A stretch of 64,000 nucleotides of DNA. Source: Nymphaea colorata. Taxonomy: Eukaryota > Streptophyta > Magnoliopsida > Nymphaeales > Nymphaeaceae. The DNA is taken from assembly GCF_008831285.2 (NCBI RefSeq), contig NC_045141.1, positions 17,594,106-17,658,105 of the forward strand, read 5' to 3'. This document shows positions 13,921-64,000 of the stretch, in pieces (position 1 is the stretch's first letter; every line of letters begins with the position of its first letter). Both the position numbers and the translations under genes were made by a program. The notes under the pieces were generated by a model. The model saw only the letters and a program-made list of their open reading frames with translations, did no database searches and had not been told where the DNA came from.

Positions 13921-16615
13921 AGGCGCTGGAAATTTGATTAAAGATGAGTGCAAAAATGTAAATCAACAGACAGAAGCTCTTATATGTAAAGATGGTACTT
14001 GACTCGATATATTTCAAGGTTTGAACCCTGCATTGCTATGAAAGAAGAATTAGACTCAGACTCGCTTGCTTAGCATTTAAAGGTCCTGTAAACAGTAAAA
14101 ATAACTTCAAATGAGGATTATTGAAGCGATCAAATACATGCAGAGAGTGGCTTTACCTCTGCTTTGCATAAACAACTACGTATATGAAAAATTGAACGGT
14201 GCCAGTCCATCTGATCAGGGGTGGAGGGAGGAGGAGGGCCACCTTAGGCCATGGCCCCACCTCAACCAATCGAAAAAAAAAAAATTACATTGAAAAAATT
14301 AAAAAAATTTAGTTGCGCCATATATTGTTTGGATTCAAATTCAGTTGGGTACTACCCGAATCCAGAAGTTGAACTATTGGGCTCGCATGCATATGATTAA
14401 TACAACCAGCCCCACTATGGCAACTCCTCATGTCTAGTGCACAAGCTACGGAAATCTCATCATCGAGCCCTAGTCTAGCAACATGACCACATGTTAATGT
14501 GTCATTATAGTGATGGTGATGCACAAAAAGCGGGTGTGATTAGTTACCATCTTGTTTATCATCATCAACTTTTCTCATAAAGCAAGCTTAGAATTGACTT
14601 ACATGTGGTCATAAAAGCGCCTTTATGTCAAGACTGCAGCTGCTGGTGGTTTGGTCAATGGTTTCAGCCACACGCTGTTGCAGCAAGCTTTCACCAACTA
14701 GGGTACAGATAAATGAACCTTTCCTTGTGACAAATAAATGTATAAGCCAGTTTTAAGCTTTCACTTTCCAAGGATGTGGAGAGAAGAGAGAGCGGTAGGC
14801 TGCATGTCTAATAAATGTAAGTGGGGATGCAAATGGACCGGATTCAGAATTCGATCAAGATTTAATACAGTTGAAAGTGACAAAATTATCTTATTATACT
14901 AATTGGCCTGCCTATTGATCTTAGCTTTATATAGCCGTTTGATGTAGAAAAAAAAAATTAATAAAAAAGGTGGGTTTGAAGTTTTTTGACTTTTTATGCA
15001 ATATATTTATTAAATTTTAAACGTGCCAAGAAATTCAGGATTTTTCTTCCACAAGGCTCTATTGCATTTAATTGCCTTTGCTTCCCTTCGAGAACCAAGA
15101 TTAATTGGCCTCACTGTTTATGACAACGCCCCCTTCCTTTCAAATAGTCTTTGGTGGCTTGGAAAACTTTTCTTCCGACGACAAAGTTATGTATCTTTAA
15201 AGTACGAACAGGTCATCAATGAAGAACGGAGTTGATGAGCTTCACCTTCCTAACACTCCTTTACTTACAATTACTAAAGGGATCCCAAGGAATTTTCCGG
15301 TGCATCAAAACACTGTGCTTAGGAATGAAGGAAAAGATTTTCGTTTCATGATGCTTTGGATGGTTGATTTTAAGGTGTTTATGAAGGAAGGGATAGATTT
15401 GAATTGGATATAATTTCACCTACCGCTTTTGAGGAAGATAAATTTTCGCCCTGCAAAGAATGTATGACACAATTTTACCTACCACTTTTGAGGAAGATGA
15501 ATTTTTGCCTCGAAAAAAGTAGACGGAAACGACGGTGCAATAATTGGGCGAGGTGTATTTGTAGCTATATGGTGAGGGCAAAGGATAGGGAGGGGGCGAT
15601 AGGCGGCCCCGTATTCATTTTAAATAATCAAGACATCAACTCACCATACTGCAAAAAAGGGGTCACCAACAAATAAGTTAAAGCATGGTGGAAGGAAGCG
15701 GCAGGTAGTTTGATGCATTAAAAGCAGACCATGTACCCTACAAGGACGAGGGATTGGATGAAGGCTTTGACCTTATGTTGGGTGGTGGTCTCCCCATTTA
15801 CTCGAAAAAACTCAACACATTGGCGTCCACTCTAGTTTAGATTTGTAGGCCGGCCTTTGTCGCGGGCTTATCTTCAATCCTCCACCTTATAAATAAGGCA
15901 TGGCCTTTGTCCAACCAAGGAATGGGCACATAAACTATGGACCTAATTTCAGGGGGGCCGGAGGAAAGCAGTGGAGAAATTCAAATTTTCCATCACCAGC
16001 ATCCGGTGGCTTGTATGTATTCAGTATTCGGATGGGATTAAATGGGAAAAGAGGCCATGTGAAAGTATAGGGCATTCAATTTTGACATTAAGTTTCAGCA
16101 AAAGGGCAACATGTGCCGTTTTCTCTTGTTTTCCTAAACACTTTTTAAGGGTTTGCTTACTTTTAATTACTTTGAAATTTCAACCCAAAAACTCCCTTTT
16201 TTTTATTTAAATAGAAAAAACAAATAATAATAAATGACGTTTTTTTTATTAGTGAATACATAACCATGTTCTATTAAACAGTTATCAAAGATGAAAATGT
16301 GGGGGCTCGATGATGTGACTTGAATGGTCATGTGAACATCAAAAGAGGCGGAGGGTCACAGAATTTATAACATGTAATAAAAACTGAGTAAGTAATGTAC
16401 ATTTCGAAGCATTAACTTCTTCCAGGCTTAGAGGACGGCAGCCCGCCCCAAACTAAAGATGGAGGTGGACCGGTTGAGCTCAGGTCAAACCCTTGCGGTC
16501 AAGCCGGAGCACAACACCGGTGAGCATCAACACCGGTGAGCATCAGCAAGAGGGATAAAGGTCGCCAGGTGGGTAGTTGGAACACATAAAGGCTTGCACA
16601 AGGGAGGCGGACAGT
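13921..16615. other. intergenic, no gene seen
   Basis: Apart from the repeat at 14215-14315, the stretch has short unrecognised frames. A small imperfect direct duplication (CCTACC..CTTTTGAGGAAGATAAATTTT) lies at 15419-15450 and 15478-15510. Another (CAACACCGGTGAGCATCA) lies at about 16512-16545. Frames at 15023-15676 (+) look like pieces of something once coding but match no family I know. Confidence 0.45.
14215..14315 (+). repeat. partial copy of GGGGTGGAG... A-rich interspersed repeat
   Basis: GGGGTGGAGGGAGG, then CCATGGCCCCACCTCAA, a run of A and AATTACATTG. The same order is seen in the longer copies at 18779-18970 and 59824-60012. This copy lacks the 3' half. Confidence 0.55.
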
Positions 16616-18778: not shown

Positions 18779-18970
18779 CAAGGGCGAAACTAAGGTAGGG
18801 TCTGCATGGGCCTTGAAACCACCTCAAAAACTTTTTTTTTAATTACATGTAAATTTTAAAAAAATTCACTAATTTTATATAAAAATTTTGAAAAATGATA
18901 TTTCGGCCCTAATTAAAATTTAGAAACTTTAATTCAGCTTCGTTCATGAAAAATTTCTTGCTCCGCCATT
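18779..18970 (+). repeat. A-rich interspersed repeat (second family), copy 1
   Basis: AGGGCGAAACTAAGG, then GCATGGGCCTTGAAACCACCTC, a poly-T/A block, AATTACATGTAAATTTTA, ATTTTATATAAAAATTTTG and ATGATATTTCGGCCCTAA, ending TTGCTCCGCCATT. It matches 59824-60012 nearly word for word. The short inverted ends (GGGCGAAAC against GCTCCGCC) hint at a small DNA transposon. Confidence 0.6.
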
Positions 18971-39200: not shown

Positions 39201-42200
39201 TTCCATGCTGTCACATAACCATTACATCTGCAAAGAAACAAATGACAGCGTATATCATGAATCTGGGACAAAAGACAGAAAACATAGCCAAGCAATACAA
39301 GATGCATAAATGCATACCATTTTAATATCAGTTCACAATAAAGCTTAAAAAACTTGCCCATACATGAATCAGAAAGGTACTTCGAACAGCATCACCTTAT
39401 ATCGGCACCATAATAGCTCATTCAATCAAAAGAAGCAAACAGAATACCCGCCTACAGATGACAAAGATGGTTTCCACCATTACTTTTGTACTCTCATATA
39501 ACTGACTTTGTGTCCAAGTTCTTTCAATTCATTTAATGTAAGACACAAATGTTCATTTGAATATAAACTTTTCTACACATGGGATAACCCTGTGGAATGA
39601 AACTTTTGCTAATTGTGAGAGCGCTTGAAGTTATCTGCCAGATAGAGCACCCCCTATCAAGCAAAATATTGGTCACTCTACTATTTTAAGGACATCACAA
39701 ATTTTGGCAGCAAAATGTAAACATTTTGAAGCTGAAAGATCTTATATTTCTCCTTAAATACCAAAACCAATAACAGTCAGCATGGTAACAGTGCACATAG
39801 CAAGGAGGTGAACCTCTGGTGGTTTTCCCCTGGGTGAATTAATTTCACATCTATGGCATTATATTTGGTATACATAAAGGTAAACAAGTATCTTCTACAT
39901 CTCCCAAGCAATAGATATGGTATTTACAGAAAAACAAACCCCAATAATTTAACCCACTTAATAAATTGACCATGAGCAATCCACTTCGTTGTCACATGTA
40001 GAAAAAAGGAATTTGAAGTGGATGTCCATTAGAATAGGAATTTCTCCTGTAAAACAGGAACTTCAAATGGTGAAACTTGCTCAGCCAATATTAGAAGAAA
40101 AGGATGGAAAACATTTTGCTGAAATGCAAAATGTCCATTCTTTTCCAAAATTCAAACATAGAAAGCAAAGTAACGAATTGGAATTGCTGAGTGGTTAGCA
40201 AGCCATAACAAGCAGGAGGCTGCCATCCAACAATCTCAAAGAAGCCTTCATAAATCCAGGGTATGCACTTGAACCAACAGTGCAAGGGTATGCACTTGAA
40301 CCAACAGTGCAATAAAAAAAAAACATTTGGAAGACTAGCATAAACAGAGACAAACAGTAATTCGTCACCGGAGCATCTGGAGAACAGCAAACTTACCCAT
40401 CGCACTTGTACATATTTTCACCTTCAAGCCATTCCTTTACGGTAAACTGGTTCAGACATTCTTCCAGAGATTCAGCACCTCCTTGAATTTCAACTGTCAA
40501 ATCCATCATATTCTCATACCGATTTGAAATCTTATTGCATTTTGAGCATATCACCTGCATGTAGAACAAGTTAAGAAGAATTTTGAGCATATATCCTGCA
40601 TGTAAAACCAGTTAAGCAAACGCTTCAAGAAACATGGGTAAAAGTGACTGTAAGATTGTAAACACTTTGAAGGAGAATTTATTTTAATTAATTCAAACAA
40701 GAAAAAAGTGGCACCAAATGCAAGAAAACAGTTACTCTCAGAACTATAACCAGTTGAATGAAGAAATTCCGCATGCAGCAGAAGGATCATCAATGATGAA
40801 TTGAATTGACCCAAATGAATGATGAACAAGATAAATCTCAATTAATGAATTGATTACCTACTAAGTTAATAGTTCACCGGTCTATCCACATACATGAGTT
40901 GGTGTTACTTGTAGCTGCAGAAGGTAACTCAAAAAGTAGACAGACACTTTGCTGTGATGAGTTGATACTCATCAGAAGCAAGTTAGACATTGCCTCTGGA
41001 CAAGCTAAGCTTGTATTCTTGAGTTCGCAAGTAGGACTTGTACCAAGTCCATGAACAACAATCCTAAACAATTGATGTACCTGGGTTCCAGAAAGCTGCC
41101 TAATGTTTCATTGGCATTGTGAACTGTCAACCCTTACCAAAGGTAGAGCTAACAACTACTAAGCTTTATCTTATTTACGACTAGAAAATGACTTCAACAG
41201 CAGTAGACTGTTGCTTGGTCCATTTTTAGCACTACATTCAGCAAACATCTTTGCACATGCTTCCATATTTCTTCAGTTCAGAACAACAAGAAGGTGGCAT
41301 CACTTGCTAGAAATGCCTTACAGCATCTGACGATACATGAAGTGGAACTCCGGGAAGTTTAGAGAGGATAAATATGCACCCACCTGCTATTATTTAGGGC
41401 CCATCTTTTCCCGTGTTACATACACACTGCCTACAAATAGGGACATTTGTGTCTAGTGGTTTTGGATACATATACAATATGCTGCACATCATTTTGTACT
41501 CTCTCTCTCCCTCTCCTATACAATATGCTGCACACCATTTTGTACTTTCTCTCTCCCTCTCCTCTCACAAAAAAAACGAAAAGGACACACAACAAGTAAA
41601 GAAAAGAGCCTCTCCCTTACTAAAGGAGAAGACTATTTGCTTGCCCAAAATACACAAATACTTTTATCTAAAATATGTTATTTTCCTTCTCAAGGAAGAG
41701 CTAGTTCCCCGACAAGAATGTTTCTTCGGCTGGGAAATGAGAGTGGAAATTAATGTGTCCCCTTTTCTCCTAATTGTGTCAAAAGGTGAACAGAGGTGAA
41801 TGGCATAAAAATTACACTCTTTTCTTTTGCAAATTTTAGAAAGAGTTTTTTTCTTTTAAAATTTTTCAACTAAAGTATGAGTTGTTAAAATTGAAATGCA
41901 TATGTACATGTGTGTGTGTCTGTGTCTCTGGCAATCACAGCTTGTCTACATACCTTCTCAAAGCTTTAGATCTCTCCCCATCCTAACTTATCACGACATT
42001 CATTTCCAGCATGTCATTGGAGCTTGAATGAGCCCCAAATCACTCATTACCATACATGTCACATGCACAGTTTGTTGTGAGGAGCATAATCTCATCTAAC
42101 ATGCTGCAAGAGACAGTTCTCTTTGGTTTTTCTAAAATTTTCCTCTTTTTTATGGTTTCCTTAGCTTTTCTTTTTCCATTCAAGAGACATATTTAAAAAT

Positions 42201-45200
42201 GTCAAGGTTGTGAACACATTCAAGCATTGTAAACCCTCCATATTCCACAACAAAAGGTGGGAGCCTATTAACCTCTGGTGTATGCACAAGATACGTCTGC
42301 CTCCTTTAACATTCCCAGGTACCCTACTTAATATAGGTTAAGGCACTTTTGACTTGCCTCTTCTTCCATCTTCCTTGCTAGGTTTGCAAAAATGGTATAA
42401 TGTTGGAAGGTACATTGCTTATTTAGTTTGCAAGCAGAAAGCTATCCATCTGAAAGGGTTGACCTATTTGTCAGTCATGCAGGCCTACTGGAATAGGGAA
42501 GCTAACAGAACCTCTAGCAAAGTAGGTAATAGAAGCTGTCAAGTTGATCTTGATTAGAGTTAAGGCCCAAGGATGTATAGAAGTGCAAGACTTGGTATCC
42601 TAAAGTATATACCGGAAATCATCCACCATAATTTAGGAAGCCCCACCTATCACAGTTAAGGTTGAGCACCTGCAGCCACTAGGTAATAGAAGTCCCTTCT
42701 TCTCTCATACAGGAACCAATCTGCCATGTCCATGTGACCTAGATTTGACTCTAGAGGTAACCTTCTTCTCTCATCTACCTTCCCTTCCTTTAGATTTGTC
42801 CATGTTCCTTAGTTTCCTACCGCAAGTTGAGCAGCCACAGACCCTCCTGGAACACAGTTCTGATAGAGGCTCTAGTAGCTTAAATGATAGGCACAAATGA
42901 TCCATATTTAACATATCAATAAGGTAGAAGCATAAATTGGATTGTGAAAGGATCTAAACACCGAACGAAATGGAAGAATACTCACCTGAGACTGGAGATA
43001 ACCACCAAATATGTGATGGATAAGAGTTGTTTCTTGACAACTTGGTTCAATGGCCTTTTCCCCCCCAAACTCATCAAGACAAATTGACTGCATTGTATCA
43101 ATTGCAAATCTGAAAAACAAACTCACATGAGGCTAAACTGGAACTCCAATCCAATGAGAGGATAATACAAAAATGAATATAGCAAATGAGCCATTTCACA
43201 AATTTAAATCCATTCCAAAGAAAAATATAGACCTCATAAATTCATGAGCATCTTCCTGTTTCCCATATCCAAGATTTCCACCAATGTTAGGAATGCGAGA
43301 AAGGATATTGATTGGTGAAAAAGGATGCACGCTGTGCCTCACTCGATGGACATGGGTTTGAAGTTCACATAGGAAACACCAATCATTCCGACTGCCTGAG
43401 AATTATCAAAAGGTGAATCTAACAAGTCTAAAGACATAATAGCACAAGATTCAAACATGAAATAGGATCAATTTACATTCTTTAGAATGATCTCTCTCCA
43501 GCAAATAGGCAACCAATGGTCGAGTTGATGCAAGACATTGAAGAACCACATTCGCAAAACAGCTGTACAAAGTAAACAATAGAATCAACTACTAAACAAT
43601 TAACCTATTAAAACAAACAGAAAAATAAATTAGGTGAGAGAATGGCACAGCAACCTGTTGCCACAATTTAGAAGTCCACAAGGCGGCAATCCAGGTCTAT
43701 TCCAGTTAAATAGTTCCACAAATTCCTCATAGGGGAATAGAACCTGTCCACTGGAAGCATTAAATGAAATTCTCTATGGTTTCCTCAATAAGGCAATTGA
43801 TCCAAGAATTCCAAGAAACTGACAAATTACTAAAAGGATTATAGAAATGACAAACAAATAATCCACCTTCCTTGGCTTCTTCGGAGTCCTGCAGATTCCA
43901 CGGGCAGGCAGTAAAGAACCTGCATTATCAGGATCCTCCAACCCCCTAGTTTGTCTCTTACATCCAGAAGTACTGGTCAGATTTTCATCATTTGTGGTTG
44001 CTGCCTGGTTGCATTTCATTTTGTGACCTGCATTCCAGTCCTTACTCTGGCATGTAACAGAGCTACAGAAAAATAAAAAACATGTGAGTTTCCTTCAAAC
44101 AACTTCATCACAAAAAAATTTGGTCTAAAGGAAAATTCAATACAAGAAACCACAGAGAAATCATCAAAAGTACAGTGTAGCACATCAAAAAATTAGTGAT
44201 TGTTATTCAAAAATTAATCAGAGAGATTGCAATGATGAACCGTTGCCTCCTCAAACAGAAAATAAACAGGAATGTGGCACACTGGAACGTTTGAAGAAGT
44301 AACCAATATTGAAAATTTATCAGGAAGATTGCAATAATGAACTGTTGGTCCCTATTGCAGAAATCAAATGAGAAGGCAACCAAAAATAAAGTCAATAAAG
44401 CACCTATAACTCAATTTGTTGGAAAAATAACTGATTCCTTTCCAAGAAAGGATCCAACTATTAACCACATGTGTCGTGTGTGCGTTATAAATGAGGAATG
44501 GCTTCAACCAGTCCCATTTTGGCGCTGGTTTTTCCACCCACTTTTTCTCTCTTACTCTCTCACATACTTTTTCTCTCTTCCCCTCTTTTTTCCCCCTCTC
44601 CACAACCACCCTTCCCATCCAAGATTAGTGGAACATAGGGAGGGGAGGAAACCTGAAAAACCAGTCCCAAAGTGGGATTGGTTTTACACTTTTACTCATT
44701 CCCACAAAATGCATAAAAGCAATTTTCTTAAATCGTAATATGAGGTATCATTATCATAATTCAAAATTTCTTAGTGGTACAAAATTTTATATAAACTTGT
44801 TTGCATCTGATAAAAGTACATGTGAATGTAACCGTCAATGCATATCATGCACATACAGCATCATACAAAAATGCTCTGCAGTTAACAGCACTAGGTGGAC
44901 CTAGTCAGCAAAGCCAACATAATAGGCCTAGCAACACATAGGCAGCACCCAGGCAAAAGCAAGTCACTGGTCAGCCATAACCCATAAGTAAAAACAAAGG
45001 AAGAAAAAGAGTGAGGAACAAGATGGGGTTTTCAAATTCCCCTACATCAATGAACACTGAAGACAGAAGCCCAAGAACATGGATTTCCAGAGATAAAAAC
45101 ATACGTCTGGCCCACACACGTGCCACAGCCCAGGCACTTAGCCAAAATAAAAATTGTTTTTGGCTAAAAGATGTTTGTGTATCAAAAAATATGGTATTGT

Positions 45201-46754
45201 CATTTACAAACTACCAAGATTTATCAAGATTTCTGGGAAACACAATTAACAAAATCCTCTCACTACCTTAAATAAAGGCATGTGCTACAATATTGTGCAG
45301 AAAAGGTCTAGAGATCTATATCCCAAAGGCAAAACTTGTCTGCCATCAGATACCATAAGTTTAAACACAAAGATGGTAAAGGGCAACTTTTACAAAGACA
45401 AGTGGTTGTATTGCACCTTAATAACCACCTCAATATGATACGAATTTGAAGAATAGATAGTTCTAAAGTACTAAAATATATTTAAAAAGGAAAAAGAAAA
45501 TAAAAGAAAAAAAGAAAACTATACCGTCATTCTAGTTATTGTTTCTCCCATTGAAAATGTAATTTTCAAAAGAAAAAAAACCTACCGAGATATGAATAAG
45601 TTTCGTGAAGTCCTTACAGTTTCACTGTCGACCTCGACATGCATCTTTACCAAAGGTATTGTAGTGACTAGTCTCAAGTTTTGCATCATTGCCAGTACAT
45701 GCTCCCTTTGTCAACTAAAATTGCATGCAACAAGTACTTTTCCATGTTATGCTCCTAAATTAGGTGAGTTTGCCCCACGCCACAAACTACAAGAGAGACA
45801 AGATTTGGACTTCAACCTGACAAGTTAGTTCTTTCTACTCGAAACCAGATAACCATAAGAAGTAAACAGCATGAAACTGGGAGACAAATCGAACTTCTGT
45901 CATATCTTGAGGCAATAACATCAGGCTTACACTTGATCCCCAAGAAAGCAATTTCGAGCGCCAAAATATCAAGGCAAACAAGGCATACATAAACCTCCAA
46001 ATCAACAAAGGAATTAACACCTAACAGAATCTTCGCCTCAACCCAAAACTATGGGTTAAGTGAAAAATAAGAAACATGAGAGTATTCCCCTTGAAGTTTG
46101 AAGAACATCACCACAACAATGATGCATGATCATATTGCCAACAACCACGCAAGTCCAAAACCAACAAGCTATGTGGAGTCCGGACAATACCAAATCGAAG
46201 TTACTTCATCGAGTTTAGTTAAGCAATTAGGACCTCTGAATATGGTACCAACAAACCAACCAAATCCTCAGCAGGGACAAGGAAATAGCGGATAATAACG
46301 AAACCACGAATAGGATCAGTTCAATACCAGGACCACAATTAAACCATGATAAAGAACAAGCACCAATTAGCAGAACTATTCCCCCGAAAAAAGTACTCAA
46401 CACAAAACGATAAGGAATTAAGAACACCGAAGGCGAAAAAAGGCAAACGACGAATGCATGAAGAGAAAGTAGGAATTCCATTCCGTACCAGTAGCGCACA
46501 GCCTTGCACCGCGAGCATTTTTTGGTGGACGGCCTGCGGCAGACGAAGCAGACGCCATTGACTGCCACAGCCATGACGCGTCCGGCCTCCTGCGGCCCCC
46601 GCTGTCCGGCGTCGTCCCCCAATCTCCCGACCGTCAGGTACCTGGAGGCTGTATCCCTGACGAGACGGACCGCCGCGGCGCCCACCAAGAGAGCAGTGAC
46701 GAGGAACTTGAAGAACGTGGAAAAATCGACCCTTGAGATTGCAGAGTTTAGCAT
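36237..46754 (-). CDS. MYND-type ubiquitin C-terminal hydrolase (UBP15-19 group, UBP18/19-like)
   Basis: Eleven minus-strand exons, 46754-46489, 44062-43867, 43743-43655, 43562-43477, 43395-43233, 43109-42986, 40554-40397, 39227-39143, 39047-38835, 38751-38690 and 37287-36237, join in phase with GT-AG introns to give 830 aa. The protein is a cysteine protease that removes ubiquitin from substrates. Residues about 14-32 are hydrophobic, a likely membrane anchor. The MYND zinc finger uses C69, C72, C80, C83, C89, C93, H102 and C106, and is split by intron 1. The USP domain runs from about 155 to 481. [14 protein letters not shown] carries catalytic C185, the CSKC at about 311-314 begins a zinc-ribbon, GHYICY carries H441 and RIDD the acidic residue near 457. 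The C-terminal 350 aa are one exon, Ser-rich and low in conservation. Introns 1 and 6 are each about 2.4 kb. Nothing looks broken. Placement within UBP15-19 rests on resemblance from memory. Confidence 0.93.
40256..40312. repeat. 27-bp tandem duplication in UBP intron 7
   Basis: GGGTATGCACTTGAACCAAC..AGTGCAA occurs twice back to back without visible change. Confidence 0.85.
41463..41562. repeat. 51-bp tandem duplication in UBP intron 6
   Basis: ATACAATATGCTGCACATC..TTTTGTAC with its CT-rich tail is repeated with two or three changes. Confidence 0.85.
44500..44690. repeat. MITE-like inverted repeat in UBP intron 1
   Basis: AACCAGTCCCATTTTGGCGC..GGTTTTTC near 44508-44533 is matched in reverse complement by GAAAAACCAGTCCCAAAGTG..GGTTTTAC near 44656-44686 (most positions agree). 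The arms enclose about 120 bases of pyrimidine-rich DNA. It resembles a small DNA transposon; no target duplication could be settled. Confidence 0.5.
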
Positions 46755-48356
46755 CTATATACTAGGGCGTGGCGAGCGAACGGAGGGGAAAGAAGGCGGC
46801 CGTCGTCGTCTCTCTCCCCTTCATGGATCGCCTACCAGGAAAGGAATCCCCCTCCCGTCCCCGTTCCTTTCCCAAATGCTCGTTCTCACTCCCTCTCGCC
46901 CGTCGTCGTCTTCTCCGTCTCCTTTCTCATCCTCGGAAGAGCGAGAAGCTTCCCTCCGTTCTAATGAAGGATCATTTTCACTTGTGGAAGACGCTTTTGT
47001 GCCTAATTTCCCGGGCAGGATCACTGTTGCCCAATATTTTACGTTGTGCGGTGATAATGCGAAATTAAAACCAAAAATACTTTTAAATCTGGGGCCAATT
47101 TGGGTGTCACGGCGTTTCATCCTATAACAAGCAACCTCTGTTTAATCCGCCATTGTTAGTAAATAAAAGGTCTGGGTTGAAAGATAAATGCATGAACCAA
47201 AAGATATAAAAGAGTAACACATGGAGGAGCAAAAGCAAGAAAAAAAATATTTTTCAAGTATACATCATAAAGTAGGCAATCAATTTCAAGAGAGTACCAA
47301 GTTAAAATGAGAGTTATGTACAGCTAGTATAGTAAGTCCACTTGTAGTCCGTCAATAATGAGGGGTAGATTTCATTGCCATAATATGCAAGGTAACCTCC
47401 ATAAAAGCCTTAAGCATTTCAATTGTGTCATAAAATGACCATAATTTCCATGTTATGCCTATAACACCCAAAACATAGTATAAATTGGGGGACATTTTCC
47501 ATGCACATTTTTGCTCCATACTAATTTTGCTCTTGTAGTAGAAGAGCTTTCCATTTAATCACATTTTACTAATTTTCAACTCATAATAACATTCACACAA
47601 TATCATCAGCTAAAAAAATTGTAAAAGCATGCACGTTTTTGAAATCATACAAAAACGGTGGGTGTTTCTAGAATCTTGCGCCATACGTATCTTTGGTCCA
47701 CCACTTCCTCCACTTTCTGTGTTTTGAGGACATTCAAGTTTTCATTTTTTTTTTCCCTTTTTCTGTCTTGCAACCGCTTTCTTCCTCGAGAATGAAAGTT
47801 ATTAAAAGGTTGGTAGGTGGCATTCCTGTATATGTGCCTAACAAAACTCATTGAGAATAGTATATTGCATCACATAAGCGACTGGCCTGACTGTATACCA
47901 AGGGAGGCAACTTGGTCGTATTTCTATTAAGAAACTTTCAGTAACTGACATAATAAAGAAGAACTTTCAAAATGAAAAAAAAGAATCCTGTTTCCTTTTC
48001 ATGGTGTAAATATTATATAAGCTTGTTTTTTTCTGGGTGTTCTGTAATGTCCATAAGCAACTCCCCACTTTGGAGTGATCTCCTCCTTTGATCCTTGATT
48101 ACAAGTAGAACCTCCAAACCAGATGGATTCATAATTTATGATTATCATATCAAATCCAACCTAAACTAAGTTAATATATTTATATTCCGCAGAATGTGAA
48201 CTGTTTTCTTCCATTTTTTGGGGATACGTAAGTTTGGGTTATGCAGTGTAGATGCTTTGACAGTAGGCCCGGCAGTCTATGGAAAGCGAGGGGAAGGGCA
48301 GGGAAGATGCTTTCGCATCTTCCTTGTTACATATAAACTCCTCCTTGGTTATGCAG
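45841..48356. repeat. inverted duplication, arm 1 (contains UBP exon 1 and promoter)
   Basis: This block, from GAAACCAGATAACCATAAG at 45841 to TCCTTGGTTATGCAG at 48356, reappears in reverse complement at 61267-63720. Matching landmarks include exon 1, the region 46760-46980, the frame at 47645-47851 (its mirror is 61789-61992), and TTACATATAAACTCCTCC. Small indels and substitutions are spread throughout, so it is a real duplication of some age. Immediately right of the arm comes (AT)n. This arm belongs to the intact gene, so it is presumably the original. Confidence 0.88.
46755..47140 (-). promoter_or_regulatory. UBP 5' leader and proximal promoter
   Basis: Directly upstream of the UBP ATG. 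It is GC-rich for about 200 bases, then AT-rich beyond 46980. TATATAGAT ends right at the start codon, too close to be a functional TATA box for it. The same sequence is present in arm 2 of the inverted duplication, upstream of the duplicated exon. Frames 46504-47127 (+) are antisense shadows. Confidence 0.45.
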
Positions 48357-48432
48357 ATATATATATATATATATATATAGAAAGGCTTTCAAGATGACGG
48401 TGTTCCCGCTTTCAAGATGACGGTGTTCCCTT
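48357..48432. repeat. (AT)n tract and 25-bp tandem duplication at the arm 1 boundary
   Basis: (AT) repeats at 48357-48379 are followed by GCTTTCAAGATGACGGTGTT twice in succession (about 48386-48430). This is the inner breakpoint of the inverted duplication. Confidence 0.8.
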
Positions 48433-50678: not shown

Positions 50679-53525
50679 TCTATCCTGTACATATATCAAA
50701 CTATGGCTGTGCTCCAAACAGTAATTGGAGGAGATTTTTCTCTCATAGAAAACCCAGATCTATCCTCTTAGATTTAGTACAGGCAGGTTGCCAGTTGAAT
50801 CCAACCATTGACAAGTACTCGGCTTCGATCCCGAGATTCTGTCACAATTCATGAACAGGGAATATGAAATCATCTCGGCTGATATGTACAAGGGAAATGT
50901 AACTTTTAAATCACCTGAAAAATACAAAATGAAGATGGTGGGCCTTTCTCAAATTCAGAAATGGTATGCACCTGATCTTCTCACAGGGCTGATGGCCTGA
51001 TTCCCAACCTTCAAAGGTCGGACAGGAGTTCTGGCAGCCCCATTATCGTGGAATTCCTCATGGTTCGCAATGAGCGGAGAACAATATGATGGGTTTAGCA
51101 GACATGTTTCTAAGCAGAAAAATAAATCTTTTAGTCTGTTGGCTGATGCATGCATGCAGTTAGTTGTGTACTTATAACTTCCTGATTAAGCCGCAAAAAA
51201 GAAAAATTAAACATGTGGAGAGTTTTCAAGTTGTATGACTACTAATTGTCATCTGAATTAGAAAGAAAAGGTAGTAAAAGGTGTGCAGCCACATGGGGAT
51301 AAGGGCAAAACCGCAGAAATACAAAATTACATAAATGTCTTTACAAAAAAATTTCATCCATTAAATATAGATCAAGCTCCACACTCCGACATTTTATCCT
51401 GGAATGTGAAATTAAACTTGTGTTGTATGTGGACCAGACATTTTTAGCTTTTTCGCAACATCAAACCATTTGCAGAAATGAACTTGAGTCATGCAAATTA
51501 TGTGTAAATAAGCAATTCATTTATATGTGCCCATCCTTCATAAGAGTTCCGATGGGTTGTTGCGTTGCTTGTTGCAGGTTCAAAGTTGCGAGCTAGTGCT
51601 GCGTTGAGATCCTGGGTGAAGCCACAAAACTACTCCAACCTGTTGGTATTAGAGCTCTTATTATTGAATCTGCAAGCAGCAAACCTATAAGTTACATCTG
51701 GCCTTTATCTCTCTCTCTTGTGGGCACATGCACACCATCAGGCTTGTTTATTCTACCATCCTAATAAATATCATAGAGACTCGGTGCCTCAAATAGAGTC
51801 CGATTGCGCAAGAGGCTATACATGATTCTATTATCACAAGTGCTTCTGTTATTGCTTTTGAGCAACACTGTACATGCAGTCTAGGCATTATTCATAATAA
51901 TAGATAGTTTAGATCATGACAAAGTGCATGAACATATTATACTTTGTTTCTCAATCTTCTAGCGTGCTAAAAATCTCAAAACATCAATTATACATTCATG
52001 TATAATCTCTCTGCATGTATATCACACGGTTCCGGATTAATAATGAAAGAAAAAAAAGGTACCACACATATATCCCCTGTATGCTAACATGATTGGTATC
52101 ATTAGCTTTGCTTATAAGCCCCTCTATAATGCATAGACCTAGCATGAAATTTCTGCTTTGTATCTGCAATAAGATTATGAGAAAAAAAAAGGGGGGGATA
52201 GTACAAAAGGACCCAAAAAGAAAAAAAAAAAGAGAACCAAGAAATTTGTTTTAAGATGCAATGCTATTATATGCATGAAAAATGGCAAAATCCATATGCT
52301 TCTATTCTGGTACTGCACATATAAAGTTCTGCCGTGTTCGTATAGTAAAACAGAAAGGTAGGACAACGTTGTGCCTCTGATTTTCATATATGAAGACCGT
52401 TCTGCTCGGTAGCCTAAAAGGTTTTCTTTGTGCATATGTTTGATAGCGTAATCTTTATGCTTCCATCTGAGAAGTGTGCATGTGAAATCTCAAAATTAAA
52501 ATCATTCAGCTAAGTCTTTGAATGTTTTTCATTCGTTGCTTGCATGTTGCATGATTAACTAGAGAAATTGTTTAGATGAATCCTACATTGTTAGTTCCGT
52601 TACTTATTATAACAGAAGACATGCAACATGCTCAGTGGATTCGATAAAAGAACATATCTATATATATATGAAAAAAAAGGGACGCTAGATCACCAAATAA
52701 ACCATGGAATAGCAATGAGAGCGAAACATATATACATGTGCGTCCGAGAACCTGAAAAAGAGAAGTCAAAAGCCGATGACTCGGCATGTACATAGGCCCA
52801 CCACTTAAACCACACTACACAGAAGATTTATTATAAAAAGCAAACCAATCTCCCACTCTTCTAGCAGTGAACCCTGAACCATCTTCTAAAAGCTTCACAT
52901 GATGAGAACAGATGACAGTAGCGCCATGCAACTAAGTGAAAGCCATGCATGCAAGATTTCAAATGACCTGAACCATCAATTCAGGCATATTTCAGAATGT
53001 TATTGAATTAAGAAGACCATTTTTATGACCTGAGATCAGATTTAATCTAAATTCCCTCGGATTCCCTCCCTCCTCTCTTCTTCTTCTTCTCTGCCTCCTC
53101 CGATATGACAATCTATAACTACGAAATTCGAATCAATCTTTTGTCAACATTTTTTCCCATCCCATCCGCTCTATGACATTGGCACTGACCATGAACTCGA
53201 TCTTGCAAGTAAGCTATGGAGATGTAGGAGTGGGACCGGGTCACCGTAATGCATCTGCTACTAGTATGTGAGTCCCCAGCGATTTGTAACCTCGTTTGTA
53301 GCAAACTTACTAAGCTGAGTAGTCATCCATTAAGGGCTGTTTGGCAACAACAACACACTTCTACTGTCTTATGAATCTTCCTTAGAACATGGAACAGATT
53401 CAGAAACACTGTAACAAGGGGAATCAGCCTTTGCCAGAAAAGCTAGATCCGCACACACTTTGAATCTCTTCTTTCGTATTCTCTTTTTCTTCTGGACTAA
53501 CTGAATTCTAAGGTTTTGGTAACAG
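50679..53525. other. intergenic, no gene seen; should contain the missing AVT1 N-terminus
   Basis: AT-rich with only short frames. The first exon(s) of the AVT1-like copy starting at 53526 should be here, but I find no ATG-led block with an acidic/polar N-terminus followed by a donor in phase. Pyrimidine runs lie at 53060-53100. Confidence 0.45.
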
Positions 53526-53982
53526 GTGTTAACGTGATGGTGGGAGTTGGAATTCTGACTACACCTTTCACCATAAAAGGAGCTGGATGGGCAAGCTTGC
53601 TGGTCTTAGCGTGCTTTGCAGCCATGTGTTGCTACACAGGCATCCTCATGGGACGTTGTATGGGAAGCAGAGGAGGCATTGTCAGCTATCCAGACATAGG
53701 AGAAGCTGCTTATGGAAAATATGGGCGTTTTTTGGTACTTGTAACTTGAATTGCTCCTGATTTCTCCACCAAGACAATGGTTCTTTTCCTTTTTCTCCAC
53801 AAATAAATGAGCATCACTCATCTTTTATTTTTTTTATATATATATACACACACTGACACAAACAAATGGTAACATGCACTGAAAATGCAACACTAGTTGG
53901 GCAGTTTCTAATTACTGAACAATCACATTTTTGCATTTATGGTTTAGGTGGTTTTGTATCTGGAATTGTATGTAAGTATAAT

Positions 53983-56050: not shown

Positions 56051-57319
56051 GTATGCTTATTGCCACTCATGACTATGGTAGTATTACTTTGAACGTAAGC
56101 AAAAGAACTTCACGTATAACACAAGTTTAATTTCACATTCTAGGATAAAATGTCAGGAGTGTGGAGCCTGATCTAATAGAATGGAAGGTATTTTTGTTGG
56201 TACTGACGCATGCAAAAACATTTTGTGCACCAGTATAGCGCATATAACACTCTAGAATCTATTTAAATTGTTTGCAATAAAAAGCCCTAATTTTTAATCC
56301 TCGGAAATACTTTGGAAATCAAGATTTTCAGCTGAAAAAAGGGGAACTCGCATGCCAATAGAAATCACATATTGATTCAAAGGTTGTTCTTGATAAGTTT
56401 TAATGAAACTCCTTCTAGGTCGACCCTAGGATGCTCATAGCTCACAAACCGCATAGAATCTTCCAAAAGTCATGTGACTTCAGTTCTAGGGAAGAACTTC
56501 ACGCATCGGGCAAGGGAAGAACTTCACGCACGCATCAGGCAAGGGAAGAGGTTACAATGGAAATCAATCACCAAACAATTGCTGGGTTGCGACTTGTAAC
56601 TGCCTAGGGGGAATCCAAGGACGCAATTATAAAAGCCCAGCATTTTATGTTGAACATTATTAAAGTGTGTCTCCTTATTCTTTAAGCGAACTCGTAAAAT
56701 GCTTTTAATTATTAGAGGATTTGCCATCTGCATTTATTTTTTTCCGTTGAATTGCATCTTCGACATGTGTAGCGGTGAAGGAATCGTCTCTCCTCTTACT
56801 TTTTGTACCTGTCAGGTTCTTCTGGAGAGGCCATTTTTATTTTCTTTGGACATGAATTATAAAAGTTAGTGCTTTTGGGATCTAAATGGTCTTTTGCAAA
56901 AGATGGATTAAAAACAATGTTTTGCACTCTTTAACATTTTATACCCTTTTCGTACAAAATGTAGACATAAATCTCGGTCATCAAAACAATAGAAATCTAC
57001 CTAAATTGGCGTTGCGATGCAGAAATAAGATCTTAAGAGTCAATAACATCCTTTTAAGCTTATAAAACTCACTTTTGTATTGATTTCCAAAATGTAAAAC
57101 ATAAAAATTAATAAGTTTGAGTTAAAATAATAAGTGGTCGTTATGTATATATATGCTTTGTTAATTTTTTTTTGCCTTTCATATTGAAACAGACTTAGAC
57201 TCATTTGTATAAGATCTGTATTTTTACTGATTAGTTTTTTGTTCAAGTTGTCAAACAAGAACACCATTAATCTAAATCCGAACAGTTCTAGTGAGTAGAC
57301 AAATTATGATAGTATGCAT

Positions 57320-58008: not shown

Positions 58009-58152
58009 CTTCAACTATTTAAGCTCGTTCTATGCATTATGAAACCAAGGCTCATGGTAGCCTTCTATGGTGAAAAACCATGCAATTTTAATGAAAAAAA
58101 ACTTTTTATTGTTGGTTTTTATTTGTTTTACTTTTTCTTTATTTTTTAATTT

Positions 58153-58165
58153 GGTATCAGAGCAA
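58153..58165 (+). other. retrotransposon primer-binding-site-like motif
   Basis: TGGTATCAGAGC, the standard plant LTR-retrotransposon site complementary to initiator methionine tRNA. It would place a 5' LTR end just upstream and an element reading to the right. I find no gag or pol beyond it, only a short Lys/Gln-rich frame before the inverted repeat that starts at about 58283. Confidence 0.55.
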
Positions 58166-58282
58166 GATGCTTGACGAAGAAAAATGAAACCAATAGGTGG
58201 CCCGCAGACGACCAAATACATCGCTGCCTTCTTCACCAAAGCGAAGACTCAATCACGTGAAGAAAATCCTGAGTGCATGCCA

Positions 58283-58992
58283 AAGTGTGTCAAATTGAAG
58301 TATGTCGAATGCAAAGAGTTGTTGAATGGATAAAATATTAGGAAATTTATTATGAAAATATAGAAATTCTTTATATATTAGTGCTAGGCAAACAAATTCT
58401 TTTGCAAATATAGAAAATAGCGATCGGTTCGCTTTAAGTTTCAGACGACATTTCCATGCATGACAGAGTCATTTCTATAGCTTACAGGGAACTAAGAGGG
58501 CTTGAAGCTCAAGCTCCCAACGTGGCTTACCTTCATCCGAAAATCGACGGTCTTGGCCTCTGCTCCATAGATGCCCTTCAGGATCTCTGCGAAGACCGGC
58601 TTCAACCGCATAGATTCGTCGACCTAGACACCACTTGCCGATGAGGGCGCCGGACCTCCAAGCCTGCTTCCGTCGTTGAGAATCAAGGAAACGATGTGGG
58701 CGGAGAACGAGTTGAGCTCGTCTCTGGTTTGCACCCTCAGGAACGAGAGAAGCTGATCAGCTCTCTGTCCTTTTGATTCAGTATTATATTATATAAAATT
58801 TAAATCAATTTGATGTTGGATGGTTAAAAATTAATAATATATCACTAAAAGTATCGTAACTTCTTGATAAAAGCATCATGAACCGGTGCTGCACTATAAA
58901 GGAAAAGCAAGTACTTTTTCATAATAAATTTCCTAATATTTTAGCCATTCAACAACTCTTTGCATCCGGCATACTTCAATTTGACACACTTT
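58283..58992. mobile_element. foldback or Pack-type element with 73-bp inverted ends
   Basis: The segment GTGTGTCAAATTGAAGTATG..AAATTTATTATG (58283-58354) is the reverse complement of 58920-58992 with three mismatches by eye. Between the arms are AT-rich subterminal parts and a GC-rich core that encodes a serpin fragment. Long inverted ends around a fragment of an unrelated host gene fit a gene-capturing DNA transposon. A clear target duplication was not found. Confidence 0.65.
58531..58762 (-). pseudogene. captured serpin exon fragment
   Basis: The minus-strand peptide is ADQLLSFLRVQTRDELNSF, then VSLILNDGSRLGGPAP, ASGV*VDESMRLKPVF and EILKGIYGAEAKTVDFRMK, then GTAAGC. This is the plant serpin pattern: QLL.FL.....D.LN, then DGS..GGP, ANGVWVD.S..LKP.F and YKAE...VDFQ.K. 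It ends at the donor of the single conserved intron of plant serpin genes. The Trp codon of GVWVD is a TAG stop. Only about 78 residues are present and the reactive-centre loop is absent, so no inhibitor can be made. Confidence 0.8.
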
Positions 58993-59820
58993 TCATTTGA
59001 GGCCAAACAAAACTAGCTTTTGCTTTTCCTTTTTCTTTTATGGCAACTGAAATCACACTTGATTTTATGCAATTCTAATGTTTCATCATTTGAGTTTTGA
59101 TGTATTACTAATCATGTAGTTTTGCCTGAAAAATTCTTCTCTTTGCCAAGTGTATGTGTTTTAGCTTCTTCTTAATTTATTTGGTTTAGAATAATGTTTT
59201 CACAGCAGTTTTTGTGCATGCATAGTTTCATTGTCATATATGTCAATGAGAAAATGCAGGAATTTAAAGTTTGAAAAAATTACAAACCACCAGTCTCAAG
59301 TTTTGGGTGAATAACACATAAAGAAAATAAAAGCATCTATATACAAAGAAAATACAAGTGCCAAATACTTATGGCTTAGGCAAGTGTCATAATTCAATGC
59401 ATTTTATTTATATACAAAGAAAAAAAAATCAAACATTTATAACTTACGCAAATATCATAGTTTAATGTGTTTTATTTATATACAAAGAAAAAAACATCAA
59501 ACATTTATAGGTTACGCAAAGAACTATATCATCCGTACAAGCGCCCTTTGCTTTATGATTTTGGTTCCTTTGAACCCAAACCGTTTTTATGACTTCAGAT
59601 CAGATTTAAATTGGGTCACTTTAGTTGGTGGCACAATTATGGTTTAACTTGACTGGATTTGTTCAAAACAATGAGAAAAAATTTCGCTGGTTTGTAGTAA
59701 ATGTTACCAACAAATAATTAAAGGAACACCATTTTCTTGAAAACATGCATATATATGCATGTATGTGTATATATCTAATTATATAATTTTTAATAAGTTT
59801 GATTGCGCATAATCTAGTAG
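58993..59820. other. intergenic, no gene seen
   Basis: AT-rich, containing only the tandem repeat at 59335-59520 and short frames without recognisable content. Confidence 0.5.
59335..59520. repeat. three-copy tandem repeat, unit about 65 bp
   Basis: Units of TATATACAAAGAAAA.., then CAAACATTTATAACTTACGC and AAATATCATAGTTTAATG, begin near 59338, 59409 and 59476. The last two are closer to each other than to the first. Confidence 0.8.
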
Positions 59821-59823
59821 GAG

Positions 59824-60012
59824 CAGGGGGTGGAGCCATGGTAGGAACCCTGCATGGGCTCTGGCTCCACCTCAATTTAAAAAAAAAAATTACATGTAAA
59901 TTTTAGAAAAGTTCACTTGTTTTATATAAAAATTTAGAAAAATGATATTTCAGCCCTAGTTAAAATTTAGAAACTTTAATTTTGTCTTCTTCATTAAAAA
60001 TTTATGGTTCTA
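59824..60012 (+). repeat. A-rich interspersed repeat (second family), copy 2
   Basis: GGGGGTGGAGCCATGG, GCATGGGCTCTGGCTCCACCTC, poly-A, AATTACATGTAAATTTTAG, ATGATATTTCAGCCCTA, ending TTATGGTTCTACC. It matches 18779-18970 along its whole length, and its first half matches 14215-14315. Ends GGTGGAGCC and GGTTCTACC are imperfect inverted repeats. Confidence 0.65.
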
Positions 60013-60714
60013 CCTAGAGTAGAACTGCATAACAAGGAGGAGTTTATATGTAACAAGGAAGATGGAGAGCATCTTTAGTGTAGTATAAAATCAAGTTAGG
60101 AAAAATTCTAGGAGAAAGTTTTTGATAAAAGGGAAGAAAACTTTGTTTTACTTCCTTGCAGTTTGCCTGCCTTTGTCAAAACCAACTCAGAAAAACCAGT
60201 TTTTTTAGTAGGAACATGGCGTTATGTTTCACAAACTTCATGCATGAGGCACAATGATATTTATTAAAATTCAAGTAATTTCTCAAACGAGGGATCAAGG
60301 GGCCTAAGATCAGCTTTCTGTTATACAAGTTAACCCTGGATCTGCCTTTCTTAGCAGTCTCTGGCCAGGCTTATTATACTGGGGTTCTGCATTGCATCCA
60401 TTCCAAATTTCACCGATATCTGTTAAAATATTTTGATATTGTTGGCGTTTTGGGGATACCTGATCACATTGGCAAGATATTGCAATATTTTCGAAATGTC
60501 CCCACAAAATAAATATTGAGGATAATATATATATATAATACAATTTGTATATTTTGTATTTTTATGACTCTTAATCTTTAAAAAAAATTTGTAATTTATT
60601 AAAAAGGTATTTTTCTTTATAGTTTTTTTTACTTTTTTATTTTCATTTTTATCTTCTCAAAAAATTTTCTTTAATAGGTATTTTCGTCATGACACTCTAG
60701 CACAGAAACCGGAT
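60013..60714. other. intergenic, no gene seen
   Basis: Very AT-rich. At 60022-60072 the words TGCATAACAAGGAGGAGTTT, ATATGTAACAAGGAAGATG and GAGAGCATCTT repeat the sequence found at the inner end of inverted arm 2 (about 61270-61320), so a small extra fragment of that arm lies here. Confidence 0.55.
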
Positions 60715-60834
60715 AGAAACGCATTGGGGAAGGGAAGAGGTTATAACAAAATGATCACCAAACAAATGCGTGTAACTACTGCCTACTAGGACGCAAATAT
60801 AAAAGCCGGCATTCTATGGTGCTGCTGCCAAAGA
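60715..60834 (+). promoter_or_regulatory. promoter-like block duplicated from about 56.5 kb
   Basis: GGGAAGAGGTTATAACA, CACCAAACAA, GTAACTACTGCCT and AGGACGCAAATATAAAAGCC match 56533-56645. ATATAAAAG at about 60797 is a good TATA box and lies about 35 bases before the ATG at 60835, which would make a very short leader. Presence of the same block next to the AVT1-like copy suggests it belongs to that gene family; this is inference. Confidence 0.45.
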
Positions 60835-60918
60835 ATGGAGAAGGCGAACGATTTGAAGGCACTGGTGGGGGGCGGGGGAGAAAAGGAGGTGGAGGACGTT
60901 GATAAACACGGCAGTAAG
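60835..60918 (+). CDS. possible first exon of a third AVT1-like copy
   Basis: ATG at 60835 opens MEKANDLKALVGGGGEKEVE and then DVDKHGSKSY, a polar, acidic N-terminus of the length and style that precedes the first transmembrane segment in AVT1-type transporters. It could end at the weak donor CCG/GTGCAA (about 60924). The frame continues through LILILLFLILIC to 61050, probably intron. No second exon is found before the inverted duplication begins at 61267. The assignment rests on position and the duplicated upstream block, not on a conserved motif. Confidence 0.3.
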
Positions 60919-61180
60919 AGCTACCGGTGCAATCTCTCAGCTCTTATTCTTATTCTTCTTTTTCTCATTTTGATCTGTAAAATTTATTTTAGCTGCAATG
61001 ACTACTTTTTGAATCAGAACCGTTTGCGAACATGCTGTATTTTTCTGTGAAGTCAAGACACCGCTAACTTTCTACGTTCGTGATATATACCTTTCTGCCT
61101 GGATGATTTTCATGAAGATAATTCAAGGGATATTTATATATCACTCTCTGTATGCAGGGCAGGGCAGGGCTAAAAGTTGT

Positions 61181-61183
<3 letters not shown>

Positions 61184-61253
<70 letters not shown>
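61184..61253. repeat. (TA)n microsatellite at the arm 2 boundary
   Basis: About 35 uninterrupted TA units. It produces Ile-Tyr open frames on both strands that are not genes. Only 13 bases separate it from the inner end of inverted arm 2. Confidence 0.95.
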
Positions 61254-61257
<4 letters not shown>

Positions 61258-61266
61258 GTATGGAGT

Positions 61267-63720
61267 CTGCATAACCAAGGAGGAGTTTATATGTAACAAG
61301 GAAGATGCGAGAGCATCTTCCCTGCCCTTCCACTCGCTTTCCATAGACAAGCTCCCTGCCGGGCCTACTGTCAAAGCATCTACACTGCATAACCCAAACT
61401 TACGTATCCCCAAAAAATGGAAGAAAACAGTTCACATTCTGCAGAACATAAATATATTAACTTAGTTTAGGTTGGATTTGATATGATAATCATAAATTAT
61501 GAATCCATCTGGTTTGGAGGTTCAACTTGTAATCAAGGATCAAAGGAGGAGATCACTCCAAAGTGGGGAGTTGCTTATGGACATTGCAGAACACCCAGAA
61601 AAAAACAAGCTTATATAATATTTACACCATGAAAAGGAAACAGGATTTTTTTTTTTCATTTTGAAAGTTCTTCTTTATTATGTCAGTTACAGAAAGTTTC
61701 TTAATAGAAATACGACCAAGTTGCCTCCCTTGCTATACAGTTAGGCCAGTCGCTTATGTGATGCAAATCATGCAATATACTATTCTCAATGAGTTTTGTT
61801 AGGCACATATACAGGAATGCCACCTACCGACCTTTTATTAACTTTCATTCTCCAGGAAGAAAGCCGTTGCAAACAGAGGAGGAAAAAAAAAAGATACGTA
61901 CGGCGCAAGATTCTAGAAACACCCACCTTTTTTGTAGGATTTTCAAAAACCTGCATGCTTTTACAATTTTTTTAGCTACTGATTTTCCGTGAATGTTATT
62001 ACATATTATGAGCGGAAAATTACTAAAATGCTCTTGCTGACTAAATGGAATGCTCTTCTACTTCTACTACAAGAGCAAAAGTAGTATGGAGCAAAAATGT
62101 CCATGAAAAATGTCCTTCAATTTATACCATGTTTTGGGTGTTATATGCATAACATGGAAATTATCGTCATTTTATGACACAATTGAAATTCCTAAGTCTT
62201 TTATGGAGGTTACCTTGCATATTATGGAAATGAAATCCCTCCCTCCTTATTGACGTACAAGGACTTGCTATACTTCTTGTCACGCCCACCTTTACGGGTC
62301 ATAACTTTCATTTTAGCTTCCTACTCTCTTGAAATTGATTGCCTACTTTATGACTTATACTTGAAACATATTTTCTTTCTTGCTTCTGCTCCTCCATGTG
62401 TTACTCTTTTATATCTTTTGGTTCGTGTATTTATCCTTCAACCCATACCTTTATGTACTAACAATCGCGGATTGAACGGACGTTGCTTGTTATAGGATGA
62501 AACGCCGTGACACCCAAATTGGCCTCAGATTTAAAAGTATTTTTGGTTTTAATTTCGCCTTATCAACGCACAACGTAAAATATTGGGCAACACTGATCCT
62601 GTCTGGGGAATTAGTCACAAAAGCGTCTCTACAAGTGAAAAAATGATCCTTCATTAGAACGGAGGGAAGCTTCTCGCTCCTCCGAGGATGAGAAAGGAGA
62701 AGGAGAAGACGACGACGGGCGAGAGGGAGTGAGAACTAGCATTTGAGAAACGAATGCGGAGGGGAGGGGGATTCCTTTCCTCGTAGGCGATCCATGAAGG
62801 GGAGAGAGACGATGATGGCCGCCTTTTTTCCCCTCCGATCGTTCGCCACGCCCTAGTATATAGATGCTAAGCTCTGCAATTTCAAGGGTCGATTTTTCCA
62901 TGTTCTTCAAGTTCCTCGTCACTGCTCTCCTGGGCGCCGCGGCGCTCCGTCTCATCAGGGATACAGCCTCCAGGTACCTGACGGTCGGGAGATTGGGGGG
63001 ACACCGGAGACCGGGGGCCGCAGGAGGTCGGACGGGTCATGGCGGTGGCAATCAATGCGTCTGCTTCGTCTGCCACAGGCCGTCCACCAAGAAATGCTCG
63101 CGGTGCAAGGCTGTGCGCTACTGGTATGGGATGGAATTCCTACTTTCTCTTCATGCATTGGTCGTTTGCCTTTTTTTTCCCTTCGGTGTTCTTAATTCCT
63201 TATCGTTTTGTGTTGAGTACTTTTTTTTTTTTGGGGAATAGTTCTGCTAATTGGTCCTAGTATTGGACTGATAATTATCCGGTATTTCCTTGTCCCTGCT
63301 GAGGATTTGGTTGATTTGTTGGTACCATATTCCGAGGTCCTAATTACTTAAATAAACTCGATGAAGTGGCTGCCATTTGGTATTGTCCGGATTCCACATG
63401 GTTTGTTGGTTTTGGACTTGCGTGGTTGTTGGCAATATGATCATGCATCATTGTTGTGGTGATGTTCTTCAAACTTCAAAGGGAATACTCTCATGTTTCT
63501 TATTTTTCACGTAACCCATAGTTTTAGGTTGAGGCGAAGATTCTGTTAGGTGTTAATTCCTTTGTGGATTTGGAGGTTTATGTATGCCGTGCTATTTTGG
63601 CGCTCGAAATTGCTTTCTTGGGGTTCAAGTATAAGCCTGGTGTTATTGCCTCAAGATAATGACTGAAGTTTGATTTGTCTCCCAGTTTCATGTTGTTTAC
63701 TTCTTATGGTTATCTGGTTT
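61267..63720. repeat. inverted duplication, arm 2
   Basis: Reverse-complement copy of 45841-48356, beginning CTGCATAACCAAGGAGG and ending TTATGGTTATCTGGTTTC. It carries the duplicated UBP upstream region, exon 1 (62864-63123) and about 600 bases of intron 1. It is about 60 bp shorter than arm 1, with many small differences. The arms are separated by about 12.9 kb. Confidence 0.88.
62864..63123 (+). pseudogene. duplicated UBP exon 1 with MYND half-finger
   Basis: The copy opens [20 protein letters not shown] and ends [20 protein letters not shown] followed by TG/GTATGG, so the start, membrane segment, first half of the zinc finger and splice donor all survive. It is 260 bases against 266 in the parent. 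Between RLG and CVCFVC a one-base gain, a three-base loss and a one-base loss shift the reading frame and then restore it, so about 24 residues differ wholly but no stop is made. Whether exons follow beyond 64000 is unknown. With intron 1 cut and joined to an inverted exon, it is most likely a partial copy. Confidence 0.8.
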
Positions 63721-63848
63721 CACAAATTTAAATCCATTCCAAAGAAAAATACAGACCTCATAAATTCATGAGCATCTTCCTGTTTCCCATATCCAAGATT
63801 TTCACCAATGTTAGGAATGGGAGAAAGGATATTGATTGGTGAAAAAGG
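63718..63848. repeat. copy of UBP exon 5 region, antisense to the duplicated exon 1
   Basis: TTTCACAAATTTAAATCC to TTGATTGGTGAAAAAGG is the same strand as 43195-43323, that is most of exon 5 and its donor-side intron, with three mismatches by eye in about 128 bases. Relative to the duplicated exon 1, which reads rightward, it is in antisense orientation. The junction with arm 2 falls at a shared TTTC. Confidence 0.88.
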
Positions 63849-64000
63849 GTTGATATATAATTATGGAAAAGCTGATGTTGTTTGTCTGGGAGTTATTGCA
63901 TGTCTTCTCATAAGCAGCATTCTTATTCACAACTAAGTTTAATAAATGGAGCCAGCATGATCCTGTAATTTCTCCTTTTCCCATTAATAAGAAGTTTTTT

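Follow-up and report, generated by a model that had tools for sequence, protein, structure and literature searches.

The DNA stretch analysed here (64,000 bp, 39.4% G+C; referred to as the window) most likely contains an inverted and partial segmental duplicate of a plant-type MYND/USP deubiquitinase (UBP) gene, covering its 5′ end, with the 3′ end of the duplicate patched by a 131-bp piece of filler DNA (Table 1). Repair of a double-strand break involving template switching (SDSA or microhomology-mediated synthesis) is the likely origin of this arrangement. Read in this way, the locus provides a small and clear example of break repair leaving mixed-orientation gene fragments beside plant genes. 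Such debris is raw material, which rarely yields antisense or siRNA loci like the soybean I locus.

Table 1. Features of the UBP gene and of its inverted copy, in positions of the window.
Feature	Position	Strand	Basis
Parental source of the 131-bp piece (39 nt of intron 5, final 92 nt of exon 5)	43194..43324	-	128/131 identical to 63718-63848
Parent exon 5, 163 nt, origin of the antisense piece	43233..43395	-	AG acceptor, GT donor, in frame in spliced translation
Arm 1 (presumed source of arm 2), from the upstream region of the parent through exon 1 into the 5′ part of intron 1	45841..48379	-	BLASTN, base-level alignment
Parent exon 1, 88 codons + 2 nt, donor GT	46489..46754	-	ORF, GT donor, in-frame join to exon 2
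Outer detached remnant of the inverted copy (~48545-48410)	59607..59742	+	BLASTN, 91.2% over 137 columns
Insert with dispersed repeat (probably a transposable-element piece)	59743..60024	+	Also near 18782-18963 (77.7% over 188 columns, E 1e-34), weakly at 14218-14324 (67.9% over 109, E 1e-7)
Second, partial copy of 61267-61319 (~48356-48304), at the edge of a ~1.1-kb insert	60025..60075	+	96.2% over 53 columns to 61267-61319; 94.3% to 48356-48304
Arm 2: inverted copy of 48379-45841	61237..63721	+	BLASTN, base-level alignment
Exon 1 copy, 260 nt, 86 codons + 2 nt, then donor GTATGG	62864..63123	+	Alignment
4-nt microhomology TTTC, common to the exon-5 piece and the end of the intron-1 block	63718..63721	+	Junction read-out
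131-bp putative filler piece derived from exon 5/intron 5 of the parent, in antisense to the reading direction of the arm	63718..63848	+	BLASTN, alignment
Stretch past the piece, running off the window, 152 nt	63849..64000	+	

The parent gene is encoded on the minus strand, with its ATG at 46754. Its spliced exons 1–7 extend from 46754 down to 40397, with the acceptor of intron 1 at 44062 and exon 3 beginning at 43743. Pfam analysis of these spliced exons, with a query that carried one mistyped residue, displays matches to zf-MYND (5.7e-11) and UCH (5.1e-25), and further UCH sequence of the parent is located at 39092–38766 (1.8e-13). Among solved structures, the top match to the parent is ubiquitin carboxyl-terminal hydrolase 36 (8bs9, E 4.9e-47). 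The MYND-USP layout is that of the plant UBP15–19 proteins.

Self-comparison of the window by BLASTN displays three main inverted blocks, with identities of 88.8, 93.5 and 93.0%, which pair 48379–47745 with 61237–61892, 47694–46362 with 61890–63255, and 46296–45841 with 63274–63721. Arm 2 thus assembled comprises a diverged upstream region, exon 1, the donor and about 600 bp of intron 1. An earlier reading made from the sequence only had placed the UBP upstream region, ATG, exon 1 and donor of this arm on the plus strand, and base-level alignment confirmed this, with the ATG at 62864 and the GT donor at 63124. The copied donor reads GTATGG against GTACGG in the parent, and the copied exon is shorter than the 266 nt of its counterpart by deletions of 3, 2 and 1 nt, which leave the frame open. 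About 13 kb separate the two arms; the ATGs of parent and copy are about 16 kb apart, and the two units are divergent in orientation. Apart from the exon-5 piece, self-BLAST of the window at E 1e-8 found no second copy of the other parent exons.

The segment that follows the intron-1 part of arm 2 matches its source on the same strand (E 2.85e-59), a value that rules out chance similarity, and it is therefore antisense to the reading direction of the arm. The sequence-only reading had described this segment as a near-identical antisense copy of exon 5. The near-identity (128/131) and the antisense orientation are borne out, whereas the full exon is not present: the segment covers only the last 92 of the 163 nt together with 39 nt of intron 5, and is broken in mid-exon at 63848. 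The accompanying figure of about 100 bases antisense to UBP exon 5 was right, as 92 nt are counted (63757–63848, with 2 mismatches and a longest perfect run of 45). The intron-1 block and the piece have exactly 4 nt in common. Among 200,000 random junctions that combined intron 1 with the plus strand of 40001–46488, an overlap of at least 4 nt occurs at about 2.0%, and one junction with such microhomology is, taken alone, weak evidence.

The breakpoints disregard gene structure, as the arm ends in intron 1 and the piece extends from intron 5 to the middle of exon 5. This argues for copying at the DNA level and not for retroposition. Both retroposition and an exon-bounded copy are ruled out by the presence of intron-1 and intron-5 sequence and by breaks located within intron 1 and within exon 5. 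A DNA-level copy that retains intron-1 sequence and is devoid of essential parts of the parent has the structural properties of a duplicated (non-processed) pseudogene or gene fragment. Likewise, a short templated insert with a nearby source on the opposite strand and TTTC at its junction has those of filler DNA generated by template switching.

Based on these data, we hypothesize the following course of events. A strand copied along the coding strand of the parent, from the upstream region into intron 1, would have proceeded as far as 45841. Synthesis may then have switched at TTTC onto the opposite strand at 43194, about 2.5 kb farther downstream in the same gene, where 131 bp would have been copied up to the middle of exon 5. 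The end of this copy would next have been joined to unrelated DNA. Insertions and substitutions presumably accumulated later, and the copy is now probably a non-functional gene fragment.

Additional support for the repair view comes from the outer part of arm 2, which is interrupted by two inserts and by an additional partial repeat of 53 bp; upstream, the homology continues in this broken form to 59607. On the other hand, the arm and the exon-5 piece may be gene fragments captured by a Pack-MULE-, CACTA- or Helitron-like element. Such elements are known for captured fragments in mixed orientation, the neighbourhood contains repeats (a 77-nt inverted pair at 58282–58358 and 58916–58992, and the dispersed repeat within 59743–60024), and a gene-like open frame is present at 60835. 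However, the 77-nt pair closes ahead of the start of the arm, the UBP sequence of arm and piece comes from a single gene inside the same window, and of 64 inverted-repeat pairs in 58100–64000, none of the 25 longest brackets the arm, noting that Helitron ends are without such repeats. Capture by a transposon appears unlikely.

Repair-associated filler DNA of this kind has been described in plants. In maize, filler is copied from near the break, with lengths of 1–131 bp in wx and of 50 bp, taken from two sites, in p2/p1 (PMC2686159). In rice, foreign filler was reported for 58 of 94 putative excisions, with an average of 13 bp and a range of 1–123 bp (PMC4423477). The cases described there (maize p2/p1, wx and R-r; rice transposon excision sites) resemble the present one in that a short segment copied from nearby sits at an illegitimate junction, and according to these reports filler can be complex and can create chimeric genes (PMC2686159, PMC4423477). 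The piece described here differs from these published examples in lying next to an inverted 2.5-kb duplicate made from the same gene. Its length of 131 bp, equal to or above the largest fillers quoted, is a point against the filler view.

Divergence along the copy was counted as substitutions per ungapped columns: 19/605 in the distal upstream region, 84/935 in the proximal upstream region, 15/260 in exon 1, 34/588 in intron 1, 3/131 in the piece, and 152/2388 in the whole arm. The piece is not significantly different from intron 1 (Fisher p 0.13), exon 1 (p 0.20), the distal upstream region (p 0.78) or the whole arm (p 0.061), but it shows significantly lower divergence than the proximal upstream block (p 0.006). 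The upstream region is itself uneven, with 3.1% distal (61267–61888) versus 9.0% proximal divergence (61889–62863; p 3.3e-6), and the step coincides with an indel of about 55 bp near 61888. The divergence of the piece, set beside that of most arm blocks, is compatible with one event, and we infer a single one. Because of the uneven arm and of the piece ranking below the proximal upstream block, one event at a uniform rate is too simple a description. Gene conversion between the arms, two different ages, a later patch or constraint on the parent exon could account for the unevenness.

The same counts bear on the possibility that the junction at 63718 is a chimera of assembly or reads, a concern raised by its closeness to the edge of the window. 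Both blocks carry substitutions of their own relative to the parent, and therefore neither represents a verbatim mis-joined parent read; the short microhomology at the junction fits repair as well. We consider such an artefact extremely unlikely. The closeness of the window edge, which lies 152 bp beyond the piece, may also suggest that the piece is the margin of a longer second UBP copy on the minus strand, extending past the window. However, the match halts in the middle of exon 5, and neither the remaining 71 nt of the exon nor the preceding intron is found in 63849–64000, so that a longer copy has a very slim chance of being the explanation. Compared with the rest of the window, these 152 nt give nothing significant (best E 1.2).

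With respect to coding capacity, comparison of the exon-1 copy with its parent yields a dN of 0.035 and a dS of 0.041 for 65 of 88 codons, gapped and frame-shifted codons having been dropped. Seven of the 65 counted codons are changed (5 nonsynonymous, 2 synonymous). Coding constraint leaves no sign in these values, at low power, since only seven changed codons are available to detect it. The unspliced frame of the copy stops after 125 codons and contains just the first half of the MYND finger, which scores under the Pfam cut-off (17.1 versus 22.7 bits), and Pfam returned no match to UCH in this reading frame. The exon-1 frame, still open after three deletions, speaks against the view of a non-functional gene fragment.

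The presence of a copied promoter region ahead of an antisense piece may suggest a self-derived antisense regulator. Judged from the sequence, the copied promoter would drive a plus-strand RNA in which exon 1 in sense orientation would precede a 92-nt antisense stretch of exon 5; by analogy, this RNA would pair with the mRNA of the parent and feed siRNA production, as proposed for the soybean I locus. Complementarity to the parent mRNA amounts to 90 of 92 nt (longest run 45) and provides 33 perfect 21-mers to the spliced parent exons 1–7. Such an RNA would be in keeping with an AATAAA past the piece, at 63941, and with a possible cryptic acceptor at 63685. The acceptor-like sites at 63241, 63521, 63527 and 63685 have 13–14 pyrimidines in 20 nt, compared with 11–16 at six parent acceptors; sites of this kind ahead of the piece could retain it in a mature RNA, while an acceptor past 63848 would remove it.

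However, several properties of the copy argue against this regulation. The upstream block nearest to the ATG is the most diverged of five blocks counted (25/265 at 62600–62865). The copied segment stops about 1.78 kb short of the parental intron-1 acceptor, and inclusion of the piece in a mature RNA therefore hinges on a cryptic acceptor or on the transcript staying unspliced. A further AATAAA at 63351 precedes the piece, and the antisense overlap is limited to 92 nt. A search of 62800–64000 (8-nt seed) found no inverted repeat of at least 15 nt, and the sole self-complementary 12-mer was one palindrome. This finding and the distance between the arms argue against a hairpin of the MIRNA or IR-siRNA type in a transcript of 62800–64000. 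No Rfam family reached the gathering score in 40000–64000.

A geometry of this type has been described for the soybean I locus, where a rearrangement puts a promoter and first exon(s) before an antisense gene copy, giving subtilisin-antisense-CHS1 (PMC6418295). This locus is a precedent in which the chimeric transcript was demonstrated by strand-specific amplification. It differs from the present case in several aspects of the published account (PMC6418295): promoter and four exons derive from another gene and the antisense part is a CHS1 region within a CHS cluster, whereas here one gene supplies both parts, the target is 92 nt long, and the case is built from sequence.

Of 11,956 rice pseudogenes, 145 exceeded an antisense small-RNA threshold, and 38 of these had matching small RNAs of the parent (PMC2708354). 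These rice pseudogenes resemble the UBP copy as duplicated gene fragments near a parent, with potential antisense complementarity. Of the 38 pairs with complementary small RNAs, 21 lie within 10 kb of each other (PMC2708354), which favours regulation by a nearby copy, but the arms here are farther apart than that. The 38 pairs were picked by observed small RNAs (PMC2708354), in contrast to a copy recognized by its bases. The proportion of 38 in 11,956, a figure which refers to one grain library and a coverage threshold (PMC2708354), is a low base rate for an antisense function. The inverted-duplication model of plant miRNA origin also starts from an inverted partial gene duplicate close to a gene (PMC3237417). 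The model as outlined there involves two adjacent segments, convergent or divergent (PMC3237417), whereas the arms here are about 13 kb apart and no sense counterpart lies close to the antisense piece. The model would presumably need one transcript across both segments.

Taking together the acceptor, the AATAAA signals, the lack of an inverted repeat, the divergent units and the low base rate, antisense regulation is possible but quite unlikely, and nothing in the sequence itself points to regulation of the parent by the copy. A more specific version, a young silencing locus in which the duplicated promoter of the gene would drive a short antisense RNA and thereby exert negative feedback scaled to promoter activity, is very improbable. 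If true, parent and copy would share regulation, unlike the soybean I locus with its promoter from another gene, and if transcription of this type took place, the gene would carry its own promoter-matched antisense feedback.

The window contains further elements. The ~1.1-kb insert in arm 2 has a 53-bp stretch of UBP upstream sequence on either side (60025–60075 and 61267–61319), a flanking repeat that exceeds the length of an ordinary target-site duplication. Within 60719–60927 of this insert a promoter-like stretch, TATAAAAG, is found, and the gene-like open frame of the insert, from 60835, has no Pfam match at E 0.1. The part at 60719–60821 is 70% similar to 56530–56652 in the spacer between the arms (E 2e-10). 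The two halves of the 77-nt inverted repeat are 96% complementary and surround 557 nt with a 93-codon open frame that has no Pfam match; together with its interior, the pair looks like a small TIR element. Between the arms, the plus strand at 53507–53749 resembles an exon of an amino acid transporter gene (Aa_trans, 2e-11). Finally, a SMAX1-like gene at 4834–9319 is represented by two minus-strand open frames, with matches to the SMAX1 nucleotide-binding domain (6.7e-32) and AAA_2 (1.1e-11).
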